Of a DNA stretch of 64,000 bases, positions 204 through 62,956 are shown one piece after another (the first letter of the stretch is position 1; each line of letters opens with the position of its first letter). The notes below the pieces were generated by a model, which worked only from the letters and a program-made list of their open reading frames with translations, ran no database searches and was not told where the DNA came from. The position numbers and the translations under genes were made by a program. Source of the DNA: Candidatus Azobacteroides sp. (GTDB lineage Bacteria > Bacteroidota > Bacteroidia > Bacteroidales > WRGA01); assembly GCA_021201815.1 (NCBI GenBank), contig JAJQEC010000051.1:1-64000 (forward strand). Direction: 5' to 3'.

Positions 204-357
204 ATGACTGAATACTTATTTTCGAATGACATAATATGGGATTTCAGATGACGCAGCGCCATTTTTCAAACGACGCTACGTCGTTTTTTGAATGACGCTA
301 CGTCGTTTTCGGGACGACGTAGCGTCATCCGAAAACTCACGCAGCGTCGTTTTCTAT
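204..357. repeat. Phased dyad array A, 22-bp period
   Basis: Seven units start at 204, 226, 248, 270, 292, 314 and 336, exactly 22 bp apart. Each is a 15-bp word plus a 7-bp T-rich spacer. The best units are ATGACGCTACGTCGT (292) and its exact reverse complement (314), so one unit is flipped without losing register. Unit 270, ACGACG-CTA-CGTCGT, is a perfect 6-3-6 dyad. The first two units keep only the ATGAC start and a similar spacer, so they look decayed. No gene overlaps it. It is not CRISPR-like: the words are too short and the spacers are alike. Function unknown. Confidence 0.8.
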
Positions 358-793: not shown

Positions 794-894
794 TGTCTAA
801 GCTTTAGACAGGTACCGAGAATAAAATAACACCCCTCTTCCCTTCCTCGAAGGGAAGTACCTTTTGACATAGTCAAAAGGGGAAGGGTTAACCC
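794..894. repeat. Cluster of perfect triloop hairpins
   Basis: Three perfect inverted repeats, each with a 3-nt loop, follow one another: TGTCTAA-GCT-TTAGACA (794-810), CTTCCCTTC-CTC-GAAGGGAAG (837-857) and CCTTTTGAC-ATA-GTCAAAAGG (860-880). The palindrome GGGTTAACCC (885-894) follows. The two 9-3-9 hairpins are 21 nt each and start 23 bp apart. No T-run follows, so these are not ordinary terminators; they look like a small mobile or REP-like palindromic element. Confidence 0.6.
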
Positions 895-26968: not shown

Positions 26969-27114
26969 CTTTTTTGATGCCAGTTTCAAAAAAGCAGATG
27001 CGCTTTTGAGAAAAGTCCATCTGCTTTTTTTAAAAGCGCATCCGCTTTGATACCCAATCTCACTCCGCTTTTGAAAAAAGTACATCTGCTTTTGAAAAAA
27101 GCGGATGCACTTTT
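26969..27114. repeat. Phased dyad array B, 21-bp period
   Basis: Units start at 26969 (decayed), 26990, 27011, 27032, 27055, 27076 and 27097; all steps are 21 bp except one of 23. The 18-bp word is AAAAGCAGATGCGCTTTT and variants such as AAAAGCGCATCCGCTTTG and AAAAGTACATCTGCTTTT. Units alternate between the GGATGC and GCATCC orientations while AAAAG...CTTTT arms stay fixed. The design is the same as array A, with an unrelated word. It ends 27 bp before the terminator of the structured RNA candidate. Confidence 0.8.
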
Positions 27115-59019: not shown

Positions 59020-60240
59020 TTATTCGGCAGAAACAACAGCCTGTGGCATTTCTGCAGGAATAACATTATATTTTTTAAAACACTTTTCTACTTTGCCGAT
59101 TGCATAATCCAGCTGTTCCATCGTATGAGTAGCCATTAAAGAAAAACGGATCAACGTATCATCCGGGGACACTGCCGGGGACACAACCGGATTAACGAAT
59201 ATTCCTTCATCCATTAACTCTCTGGTAATACGGAATGTCTTTTCGTTATCCCTGATATAAAGAGGAATAATGGGTGTTTGTGTATTACCGATCTCACAGC
59301 CAAGCTGTCTGAATCCGGTTAATGCGTAATTAGTTAATTTCCACAGATGTTCTATCCGCTCAGGCTCATTGAGCATAATATCCAGTGCTGCAGAAGCTGC
59401 TCCGATAGATGCAGGCGTACAACTGGCACTAAAAATATAAGACCGGGAATTATGCCTAAGATACTCGGTAATGGTTTTGTTTGCAGCAATAAAGCCACCC
59501 AGGGAAGCAAAAGATTTACTAAAAGTACCCATTATCAGGTCGACATCATTTGTCAGACCGAAATGATTGCATGTCCCTCTTCCGTTTCTACCCAATACAC
59601 CGATACCGTGTGCCTCATCTACCATAATGGAAGCGTTGTATTTTTTTGCCAGGTCCACAATAACCGGTAAGTTCGCAATATCACCTTCCATACTGAATAC
59701 TCCATCCATAACAATCAGCTTGACTTTGTCAATATCACAGGATTTCAATACTTTCTCCAGTGATTCCATATCGTTATGTTTGTATTTCAGTGCATTTGAA
59801 AAAGAAAGCCTTCTTCCTTCAATGATAGAAGCATGATCCAGATCGTCCAGTATAATATATTCACCACGACCCGTTAAGCAGGAAACAACTCCTAAATTAA
59901 CCTGAAATCCGGTAGAATAGATGATCGCATCTTCTTTATCTACAAATTCCGCCAACCGGCGTTCTAATTCAACGTGAATATCTAGTGTTCCATTTAAAAA
60001 ACGAGAGCCGGCACATCCGGTACCATATCTTTTGGTAGCTTCGATGGCGGCTTCCTTTACTTTGGGATGGTTGGTTAATCCTAAATAGCTGTTTGAACCG
60101 AACATTAAGACCTTTTTGCCTCCAATGACAACTTCTGTATCCTGTTCGCTTTGAATTTCCCGAAAATAAGGATAAATCCCCATCTCTTTTACAATCCGGG
60201 AATCATCATATTTCGCCAATTTCTGTTCTAATAAATTCAT
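59020..60240 (-). CDS. Serine palmitoyltransferase (alpha-oxoamine synthase)
   Basis: First step of sphingolipid synthesis: serine plus palmitoyl-CoA to 3-ketosphinganine, PLP-dependent, cytosolic. The 406-residue protein has GTGCAGSRFLNGTLDIHVELE (about 73-93), DDLDHASIIEGRRLS, VDEAHGIGVLGRNGRG (about 208-223) and the PLP lysine in GTFSKSFASLGGFIA (about 240-254). It resembles the Bacteroides SPT more than BioF or Kbl, and Bacteroidales make sphingolipids, so SPT is preferred. BioF remains possible, but no other biotin gene is present. A good promoter lies upstream. Confidence 0.82.
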   Translation of the reverse strand: MNLLEQKLAKYDDSRIVKEMGIYPYFREIQSEQDTEVVIGGKKVLMFGSNSYLGLTNHPKVKEAAIEATKRYGTGCAGSRFLNGTLDIHVELERRLAEFVDKEDAIIYSTGFQVNLGVVSCLTGRGEYIILDDLDHASIIEGRRLSFSNALKYKHNDMESLEKVLKSCDIDKVKLIVMDGVFSMEGDIANLPVIVDLAKKYNASIMVDEAHGIGVLGRNGRGTCNHFGLTNDVDLIMGTFSKSFASLGGFIAANKTITEYLRHNSRSYIFSASCTPASIGAASAALDIMLNEPERIEHLWKLTNYALTGFRQLGCEIGNTQTPIIPLYIRDNEKTFRITRELMDEGIFVNPVVSPAVSPDDTLIRFSLMATHTMEQLDYAIGKVEKCFKKYNVIPAEMPQAVVSAE

Positions 60241-60366: not shown

Positions 60367-60600
60367 ATCGATTAAAATGTTTGGTTAAATGCACTTGTTT
60401 TTTGAAATATGTTCTTCCATAGCATTATTTATAGACAAAAATAAACAATTTTATAGTAGAAAGAAACAATTTTAACCAAAACCTGACTTTCAAAACCTGA
60501 TTTTTACCTGATAAATATAATAAAGACTTTAAATTATATGGTCTGGGAATAATGCAAAAATTTTTCCTGAGAGTTTATTATTAAAAAAAAGCAAAAAAAC

Positions 60601-60631
60601 TTGACTTCCGGATAAAAAAGCAGTATCTTTA
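60601..60631 (+). promoter_or_regulatory. Promoter-like site reading into array C
   Basis: TTG (60601-60603), 20 bp, then TATCTTTA (60624-60631) differs from the consensus at the last base. It would transcribe array C. The frame opening at 60633 is built mostly from the array and does not look like a protein. Confidence 0.35.
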
Positions 60632-60749
60632 TATGCAGGGAAGAACTTATTATTTAAGAAATATATTTTGTCACCATATAATCTCTGGCTGCTATTTGAG
60701 GGTGTTCATGTCCTTCTTTCTGCAGGAGGTTCCTCCTATTCCGGATTTC

Positions 60750-60881
60750 ATCGTTCCACCAAGGTCAAACGAACGTCCCACCTTGGTAAGACGATCGCCC
60801 CACCAAGGTGGGACGATAACAAGGAGCGGCCGTTTATACGACATGGACCGCTCGTTTATATAACATTGAACGCCTCTTTAC
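60750..60881. repeat. Phased dyad array C, 22-bp period, two word families
   Basis: Six 22-bp units start at 60750, 60772, 60794, 60816, 60838 and 60860. Units 1-3 centre on ACCAAGGT or its complement ACCTTGGT at 60758, 60780 and 60802, with CGTCCCACC / GGTGGGACG arms; unit 2 is inverted. Units 4-6 carry a different word, GAGCGGCC (60824), inverted as GACCGCTC (60846), and a weak GAACGCCT (60868), with CGTTTAT ends. The period is unbroken across the change of word. The rest of 60241-61075 is AT-rich and holds no gene. Confidence 0.8.
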
Positions 60882-61075
60882 ATGACTTTATTCTCATGTT
60901 TTCCCGGATTGCCCATACTCTTTTCAAAATAATAAAATTATGTGGAAGGAAAACAAAATGACTAAAATGACTGCATTTTATCGAAGCATGATACTGTTTA
61001 TAAAACAAATCATTATTCTTATCGTGTTTACATATATTATAAAGAAGAGCATTATCACTTCTTAAGAGGACTCCT

Positions 61076-62956
61076 TTAGCCTTCTTTTTCACTAAGTTCA
61101 AGCCATCGAAACGTTTTTTCTTCTATCAACTCCATTATTTCGCCCATCCGGGTAGAGGTCCGGATCAATACATCGGAAGACAGATTCCCGGAATTCAGGG
61201 AAACCTCAAGTTCTCTTTTTTCTTTTTCCAGTTCTTCGATTTCTATTCCCAGCGAATCAAACTCTCTTTTTTCTTTAAAGGTTAACTTATTATTAGCTTT
61301 TTCCCTGACGGGTTTTGAATTGTTTTTATCTATATTTTCCGTTTTTACGGATAAGGATTTTTTCTCTTCCTTTTCGCATTCTTCTTTCCAGTCCCTGTAA
61401 TCCGTATAATTACCCGGAAAATCCTTAATCTCCGCGTTCCCTTTAAAAACAAGCAGATGATCCACTACCTTATCCATAAAATACCGGTCGTGGGAAATAA
61501 CAATGACACATCCTTTAAAGTCTTTCAGATATTCTTCCAGCACATTCAATGTAACGATATCCAGGTCATTAGTCGGCTCATCCAGCACAAGAAAATTCGG
61601 ATTCTTAATCAAAATAGAACAGAGATATAACCGGCGCTTTTCTCCTCCACTTAATTTATAAACATAATTATATTGGGTTTCAGGGGTAAAAAGAAAATGC
61701 TGAAGAAACTGGGAAGCAGAAAGTTTTTTACCATTTCCAAGAGATATTTCTTCTGCAATATCCCGGATGACATCAATGACTTTCATTTGTCCATCGAACT
61801 GCAATCCATCCTGACTGTAATATCCGAAACGCACTGTCTCACCTATATCGATAATTCCTTTATCCGGTTGTATTTCGCCAAGTAATATCTTAATAAAGGT
61901 AGACTTTCCGGTACCATTATTTCCGATAATTCCCATTTTTTCATACCGGGAAAAAGTGTAATTAAAATCTTCCAGGATTTTCAGGTCTCCGAAACTTTTA
62001 TATACATGCTCTGCTTCAAATATTTTAGACCCTATGTAGGAAGCCTGCACGCCCAGATTCACCTGTTCGTTTCGGAAAGAAGTTTTCACTTTATCTTCTA
62101 AGTGATAAAATGCATCTTTTCTGGCTTTTGCTTTAGTAGCACGTGCCTGAGGCTGACGACGCATCCATTCCAGTTCTTTTTTATAAAGATTCTGCGCAGT
62201 TTCCATTTCCGCAGCCTGAGACTCCATGCGTTCCTGTTTCTTTTCCAGGTAATAACTATAATTCCCTTTGTATTGATAAAGTTGTTTGTTGTCAATTTCC
62301 AAAATTTCATTACAGACACGGTCCAGAAAATACCGGTCATGAGTTACCATCAATAATGCCCGGTTGTTTTTCTTCAGATAATCCTCTAACCATTCCGTCA
62401 TTTCAAGATCCAGGTGGTTGGTAGGTTCATCCAGAATTAACAAATCCGGTTCCTGTATTAATACATTCGCTAAAGCAACTCTTTTTAATTGTCCTCCGGA
62501 AAGTTCTCTGATCTTTTGATTGAAATCCGTAATCTTAAGCTGAGTAAGGATCTGTTTAATCTTATGTTCGTAATCCCAGGCTTGTAACTGCTCCATCCGG
62601 AGAAAGAGTGATTCCAATTTTTCCTGATCATCGGACGCCATTGCCTTTTCATATTCCGCAATCACACGAACTGTTTCATCTCCGGTGTGAAAACAGGCCT
62701 CCAGCACAGTATGTTCCTGAGGAAACTGAGGGTCCTGTTCCAGATAACCGACACGAATTCCCTGGCGAAAAACAATTTCTCCGTGATCATAGTCCTCTTT
62801 TCCGGAAAGAATATTCAACAATGTGGTTTTCCCGGAACCATTCTGTGCAATTAAGGCAATTCTTTGCCCCTCGGAAATGCCAAAGGATATATTCCGGAAT
62901 AAAATTAAATCTCCAAATGTTTTCGTTAGATTATTTACCTGCAGATAGACGACCAT
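61076..62956 (-). CDS. ABC-F family ATPase
   Basis: A 626-residue cytosolic protein with two ABC cassettes and no membrane part. Cassette 1: Walker A AQNGSGKTTLL (about 37-47), signature LSGGQLKRVALA (about 153), Walker B LLILDEPTNHLD. The linker (about 235-300) contains KELEWMRRQPQARATKAKARK, the P-site tip. Cassette 2: GNNGTGKSTFI (about 345), LSGGEKRRLYL (about 439) and LVLDEPTNDLD. A basic coiled coil (about 540-620) ends it, like Uup. ABC-F proteins act on the ribosome; a housekeeping Uup-like role is more likely than antibiotic resistance because of the C-terminal coiled coil. Confidence 0.88.
   Translation of the reverse strand: MVVYLQVNNLTKTFGDLILFRNISFGISEGQRIALIAQNGSGKTTLLNILSGKEDYDHGEIVFRQGIRVGYLEQDPQFPQEHTVLEACFHTGDETVRVIAEYEKAMASDDQEKLESLFLRMEQLQAWDYEHKIKQILTQLKITDFNQKIRELSGGQLKRVALANVLIQEPDLLILDEPTNHLDLEMTEWLEDYLKKNNRALLMVTHDRYFLDRVCNEILEIDNKQLYQYKGNYSYYLEKKQERMESQAAEMETAQNLYKKELEWMRRQPQARATKAKARKDAFYHLEDKVKTSFRNEQVNLGVQASYIGSKIFEAEHVYKSFGDLKILEDFNYTFSRYEKMGIIGNNGTGKSTFIKILLGEIQPDKGIIDIGETVRFGYYSQDGLQFDGQMKVIDVIRDIAEEISLGNGKKLSASQFLQHFLFTPETQYNYVYKLSGGEKRRLYLCSILIKNPNFLVLDEPTNDLDIVTLNVLEEYLKDFKGCVIVISHDRYFMDKVVDHLLVFKGNAEIKDFPGNYTDYRDWKEECEKEEKKSLSVKTENIDKNNSKPVREKANNKLTFKEKREFDSLGIEIEELEKEKRELEVSLNSGNLSSDVLIRTSTRMGEIMELIEEKTFRWLELSEKEG

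Follow-up and report, generated by a model that had tools for sequence, protein, structure and literature searches.

The window is a 64,000-nucleotide stretch of DNA from Candidatus Azobacteroides sp. (contig JAJQEC010000051.1), and the array described here, array C, lies near its right end in a gap flanked by the genes for a serine palmitoyltransferase (59020-60240) and an ABC-F ATPase (61076-62956), both on the minus strand. Comparison of the array with its copies elsewhere in the genome revealed that it forms the core of a longer element with the following parts:

60582 to 60904, plus strand: the whole C element (promoter, leader, three X units and Y block), as delimited by pairwise BLASTN among copies
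60601 to 60631, plus strand: putative promoter of the sigma-ABfr type, TTG-N20-TATCTTTA, with the letters TTGACTTCCGGATAAAAAAGCAGTATCTTTA; a counterpart is present in 23 of 23 copies
60638 to 60749, plus strand: leader, variable in length and rich in indels between copies in the copy alignment; its GGATTTC end abuts X1
60750 to 60815, plus strand: X block, three 22-bp dyads, ATCGTTCCACCAAGGTCAAACG / AACGTCCCACCTTGGTAAGACG / ATCGCCCCACCAAGGTGGGACG, with the skeleton CG-N4-AC-N4-GT-N4-CG
60816 to 60881, plus strand: Y block, three 22-bp direct repeats, ATAACAAGGAGCGGCCGTTTAT / ACGACATGGACCGCTCGTTTAT / ATAACATTGAACGCCTCTTTAC, in the register of the X block
60882 to 60903, plus strand: Y unit 4 (the seventh unit of the array), degenerate, ATGACTTTATTCTCATGTTTTC; homology between copies stops about here

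Directly 3' of the element we also observed a short open frame (60958-61065, MTKMTAFYRSMILFIKQIIILIVFTYIIKKSIITS) with a purine-rich stretch ahead of its ATG; it looks like a small membrane peptide and had no match in Pfam or NCBIfam.

The initial annotation stated that six unit starts lie exactly 22 bp apart, and this was borne out: the starts fall at 60750, 60772, 60794, 60816, 60838 and 60860, and the identity at lag 22 over 60750-60881 was 0.61, compared with 0.25 +/- 0.04 in 5000 shuffles (maximum 0.40). At the other lags between 10 and 34 the identity never exceeded 0.36. When the array was divided, the lag-22 identity came to 0.73 for units 1-3 and 0.68 for units 4-6; across the switch between them it was at the chance level, 0.23. 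The array had also been described as two halves built of different dyads, and this description held only for the first half. Units 1-3 carry the dyads ACCAAGGT/ACCTTGGT, which are centred on ACC-WW-GGT, but GAGCGG occurs in unit 4 only, its reverse complement CCGCTC in unit 5 only, and unit 6 has neither; units 4-6 are direct repeats (ATAACAT...C...TTTAT) and not dyads. The array is not a CRISPR, as its units abut at 22 bp and no spacers are present.

A DNA search of the genome (4.22 Mb in 151 contigs) with array C gave 37 matches, which resolved into 23 elements, and array C thus belongs to an interspersed intergenic element present in 23 copies. All 23 copies have the same layout of promoter, leader, X units, Y units and tail. 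The promoter-like site that had been proposed to read into the array has its counterpart, as judged by sequence, in every copy, where TTGA-N20-A[TC]CTTT stands 149-164 nt upstream of X1 and is preceded by an A-rich run, AAAAAC. The leader is 115-130 nt long with GATTTC at its end. It is followed by four X units in 22 of the 23 copies, the window copy being the one with three, and then by three or four Y units, or five in the copy on contig C116. The consensus X unit is CG-N4-AC-N4-GT-N4-CG with a 2-bp linker, and the consensus Y unit is A.RACATT..GCTTTC.TTT... The homology spans about 340 bp, from about 18 bp 5' of the promoter to just past Y unit 4; relative to TTGA, its edges are at about -18 and at +285..303 in the window copy or +322..345 in the four-X copies. 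Since the position of the change from X to Y is identical in all 23 copies, and a second family described below has such a change as well, it is a fixed architecture and not, as the initial annotation had supposed, an event within the window array.

All copies are intergenic, and their flanks are unrelated except for three with a common downstream HU-like gene and a few with other common repeats. The flanking genes are mutually unrelated and occur in every orientation, so the view of C as a leader or attenuator of a particular gene was rejected. It was likewise rejected as coding sequence, as stops are present in nearly all frames of all copies. As separate observations, the three copies on contigs C16, C151 and C149 (L052, L066 and L072) precede paralogous HU-like genes (PF18291 HU-HIG), with ATA at the start codon position of the gene in the C149 copy, and a dispersed repeat, CTTCCCTTC..GAAGGGAAGTACCTTTTGAC..GTCAAAAGGGGAAGGGTTAACCC (window 836-893), is also found upstream of many C elements and near contig ends.

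Three further families of arrays were found in the same genome. Family D, with three copies read and about seven by hit count, has the 4X+3Y layout of C in different words: an X block of four units with the word CCACTCCAGTGG is followed by Y-like units, three or four in number, with ATAACTTTACCCTTATTACCAG or a variant of it as their word (lag-22 z 3.0-4.5), and the X-to-Y switch keeps the 22-bp register in both families. A promoter, TTTGG-N-TATATTTG, was present in the D copy tested, and one D copy has a terminator-like hairpin followed by TTTT 3' of the Y block. Array A (window 243-355) consists of ACGACGCTACGTCGTTTT units at 22 bp and has about four copies in the genome, among them copies on contigs C149, C117 and C8. 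Array B (window 26984-27114) consists of AAAAGCGCATCCGCTTTT units at about 21-22 bp and occurs at about nine places, one of which, on contig C131, is 91% identical over 241 bp. Arrays A and B had been grouped with C, and the grouping stands in that both are dispersed families. Some B copies adjoin a second dispersed repeat, GCCGTG...CACGG. We also noted that the word CACTCCAGTGATACG is common to family D (L342, L349 and L351) and the distant genome G257 (L339 and L346), a possible sign of transfer or of a common reader protein.

To compare the array with its leader, we counted gap openings in pairs drawn from 22 paralogous copies. At 40.7 mismatches, the array (X1-Y3, 154 bp) showed 0.30 openings per pair, and the leader of the same copies, at 39.0 mismatches, showed 6.73. 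Thus, at equal divergence the array has about 20 times fewer gaps, and where its length does change, it changes by whole units. Reading frame is not the cause of this deficit because all frames contain stops.

The period was then examined across species by a scan for four dyads at one fixed period with self-similarity, in which the letters were ignored. The sample comprised 80 loci from other species, each surrounding the ABC-F orthologue, and the generic scan also took in 400 kb of own-genome sequence outside the window and 400 kb from Phocaeicola vulgatus. Among 405 locus-period tests, the top nine were all at period 22, nearly every one with a different word, for example TGCCGATATATATCGGCA (Parabacteroides sp. 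52), TTTTGGCGGCCGCCAAAA and CAAGTACTCGAGTACTTG; in a palindrome-only version run over periods 16-30, 22 alone stood out. Four units were present in three of three family D copies, five of five in G257, two of two in genome G205, two of two in P. vulgatus (ATCC 8482, L297 and L301, both within the 400 kb) and also at locus L142. In Parabacteroides sp. 52, which has 40 or more copies of a 4-5-unit array with no leader, most of about 32 copies have four or five units (range 4-6). The quartets outside the own genome were seen without leader or Y block. The X skeleton CG-N4-AC-N4-GT-N4-CG recurs in distant families and was detected in genomes G326, G394, G257 and G408. Among 395 genomes of the class, four carry CAC-N4-GTG arrays with a period of 22; all four are Bacteroidales, and the own genome, G257 and G205 are among them. 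No quartets were found in the 200 kb of E. coli K-12 scanned. Phage association was rejected, as period-22 three-unit CAC-N4-GTG arrays occurred in 13 viral stretches versus 9 for the period-23 control and were not enriched.

Replacement of the word was visible in a close species pair (L143 and L145, ABC-F 96.5% identical), which has different period-22 words in the same gap after ABC-F; a third species (ABC-F 89% identical) has the same gap with no array. At 4861-5130 of L143, 5' of the quartet there, lie fragments like the L145 word (GGGCAAGTTAACG and GGGCAACTTAACA), which by their letters are perhaps the remains of an older array. A DNA search of 40 relatives found the whole C element in none of them, and in G001, the nearest congener, whose neighbouring protein is 75% identical, no quartet was found in the part of the gap after the orthologous ABC-F gene that was read. 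That gap (L186, 3400-4000) holds an unrelated tandem repeat of about 180 bp, AATCTGTGTCATCCGTGTCATCTGTG... Taken together, the indel deficit, the period specificity and the word replacement argue for selection on the spacing with a word that can change freely, as had been proposed from the window alone, and on this comparison of sequences the view that the exact 22-bp spacing is under selection while the letters turn over is well supported.

We next considered whether the units pair with each other as RNA. Compensatory change between the arms had been suggested as a check, and it does exist: the complementarity of X2 and X4 exceeds that with units of other copies (z 7), with 374 Watson-Crick pairs versus 324 expected from cross-copy pairing, and in seven copies the central AA of one unit stands opposite TT in the X2/X4 pair. 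The change is strictly Watson-Crick, however, and lacks the G-U tolerance of an RNA helix. On the promoter strand, G-U pairs (9) are fewer than A-C mismatches (33), in line with composition and with no strand preference, a test that loses force if both strands are transcribed and folded. G-U pairs should be tolerated in an RNA helix that is under selection, so an RNA fold is disfavoured and this reading of X2:X4 was rejected, the Watson-Crick excess itself being real. The partners also vary, with X1:X4 pairing in G394 and one G257 copy and X1:X2 and X3:X4 in family D, so that no single fold is conserved. The complementarity between units therefore points to a DNA-level role of the dyads or to template switching over an RNA fold; template switching during replication could produce such strict complementarity.

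An unlikely reading, although the best surviving of the alternatives, is that C and D are multicopy genes for a structured non-coding RNA of about 280 nt, with the X units as hairpins and the Y units as repeated single-stranded motifs to which mRNAs or an RNA-binding protein attach. The promoter at a fixed distance in every C copy and in the D copy would fit an RNA gene as well, as would the hairpin and T-run after the Y block of D. The edges of the element coincide with the promoter and the tail, no frame is open across copies, and the predicted folding energies are -86 to -124 kcal/mol, many copies having an X2:X4 stem of at least 20 bp. A precedent is given by FopS of B. thetaiotaomicron, an sRNA family of 14 copies with a promoter of this type, which shows that multicopy promoter-bearing RNA genes exist in Bacteroidales (PMC11697453). 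Like FopS/GibS, C consists of multicopy paralogous intergenic putative transcription units with a sigma-ABfr-type promoter, but it differs in form: a FopS RNA contains a terminator hairpin and one seed, which is single-stranded, tandem units being unmentioned in the text of the paper (PMC11697453), whereas C is built of tandem units. Against RNA genes stand the lack of G-U preference in the best-supported stem, pairing partners that vary between copies and genomes, quartets elsewhere that have no promoter, and the lack in family C of a conserved terminator, which was looked for. The window had no Rfam match at the gathering score, and two weak matches elsewhere were below threshold and chance-like. 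Arrays of terminators as a general reading were rejected, since T-runs are present in A, B and the Parabacteroides quartets but not in C or G394.

Slightly less probable still is the proposal that the quartets are non-autonomous mobile or selfish repeats of MITE or REP type with no host function, copied by a transposase or by recombination, with their dyads kept up by template switching. In its favour, there are tens of copies per genome, and their presence is lineage-specific and patchy: G326 has them, and the same-genus G387 and G421, as well as G001 and G002, do not. The Parabacteroides sp. 52 copies have short terminal inverted repeats (GCGGGGAAATAAA...TTTATTTCCCCGC), and the G326 copies (L242-L253) each have three dyads between hairpin inverted repeats (TTGCCTTCAGCCG..CGGCTGAAGGCAA). 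In the complete genome of G326 (3.29 Mb), the 12 copies leave a gap of 1.34 Mb, which 12 randomly placed points would do with a probability of about 4%. However, inspection of the C homology edges by eye revealed no terminal inverted repeats, and inspection of the flanks, with no close-strain empty site for comparison, revealed no obvious target site duplication. REP/BIME and REPINs with RAYT resemble the quartets as grouped short palindromic intergenic units in many copies with species-specific words, but REPs are not arranged in fours at a fixed 22-bp period. The Y1/RAYT transposase gene (PF01797) is present in G000 and G429 but absent from G326, G394, G431 and G432, and it was rejected as the general mover because G326 and G394 are rich in arrays. 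Neutrality would also leave the period of 22 in unrelated words, the number of about four units and the indel deficit unexplained.

The closest published relative in organisation that we found is BrickBuilt of P. gingivalis, 19 transcribed intergenic elements of leader, 23-nt tandem repeats and tail, which were filed as a MITE and had no matches outside P. gingivalis (Klein et al. 2015; PMC4596501). Its repeats number 1 to 22.8 copies of one word, and it has IS5-like terminal inverted repeats resembling ISPg1/ISPg9 (PMC4596501). Both families are lineage-specific Bacteroidales elements of about 20 intergenic copies with leader, repeats, tail and internal promoters, and this multicopy organisation was found in all 23 C copies. 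In contrast to the variable-number 23-nt repeats, C has 22-bp dyads in a fixed 4X + 3-4Y arrangement with two words, the period being 22 in all copies; terminal inverted repeats were not seen in C, and short ones occur in the Parabacteroides quartets only. The proposal of an undescribed element class thus holds in part: we found no description of 22-bp dyad quartets in the open-access literature searched, an absence that is weak evidence, and BrickBuilt is a near relative.

Plain tandem duplication of a minisatellite that is 22 bp by accident is highly improbable and already close to refuted, as it would account for the unit-step changes (three X in the window, five Y on contig C116, 4-6 units in Parabacteroides) but not for the agreement of unrelated words and lineages in period and unit number, the failure of neighbouring periods to give anything, or the in-register X-to-Y switch of both C and D.

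The reading we prefer, with a probability of roughly 0.4, is that the core of C is a phased quartet of 22-bp dyads that acts as DNA, with its spacing selected and its word free. This reading is supported by the single layout of the 23 copies, the number of four across families, the period of 22 alone, the indel deficit, Watson-Crick pairing without G-U, the quartets of other genomes that have neither leader nor Y block, and the recurrence of the skeleton in distant families. Four dyads about two helical turns apart would present sites on nearly one face of the helix, where a dimeric protein, either a host protein or one from a mobile element, may assemble side by side. The word would then follow the specificity of this reader protein, and the spacing would be set by protein-protein contact. 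In C and D, the putative promoter would transcribe across the quartet and the Y block, and a complex or hairpin at the quartet may affect how long the transcript is, or may be a by-product. Protein sites that repeat at about two helical turns are familiar from iteron and parS-like arrays, such as the 22-bp iterons of R6K; iterons, by contrast, are direct repeats at one replication origin, and the quartets are dyads in tens of dispersed copies. Against phased sites, the quartets are intergenic in every orientation, unlike ordinary operators, and two turns of relaxed B-DNA are 21 bp, so that 22 bp is not exact.

A wider proposal, which we offer tentatively, is that 22-bp dyad quartets form an unnamed class across the Bacteroidales, with spacing and number selected and the word specific to the species, read by DNA-binding proteins that rapidly change specificity and serve, for instance, nucleoid organisation or mobile-element control. 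If this is true, the dispersed repeats of a major group of gut and oral bacteria follow a hidden rule of about four mirror-image units 22 bp apart, which similarity searches would miss, as the letters differ between species. Such a rule would predict a reader protein or process, account for the intergenic repeats at which draft assemblies break, and set BrickBuilt of P. gingivalis in a wider context.
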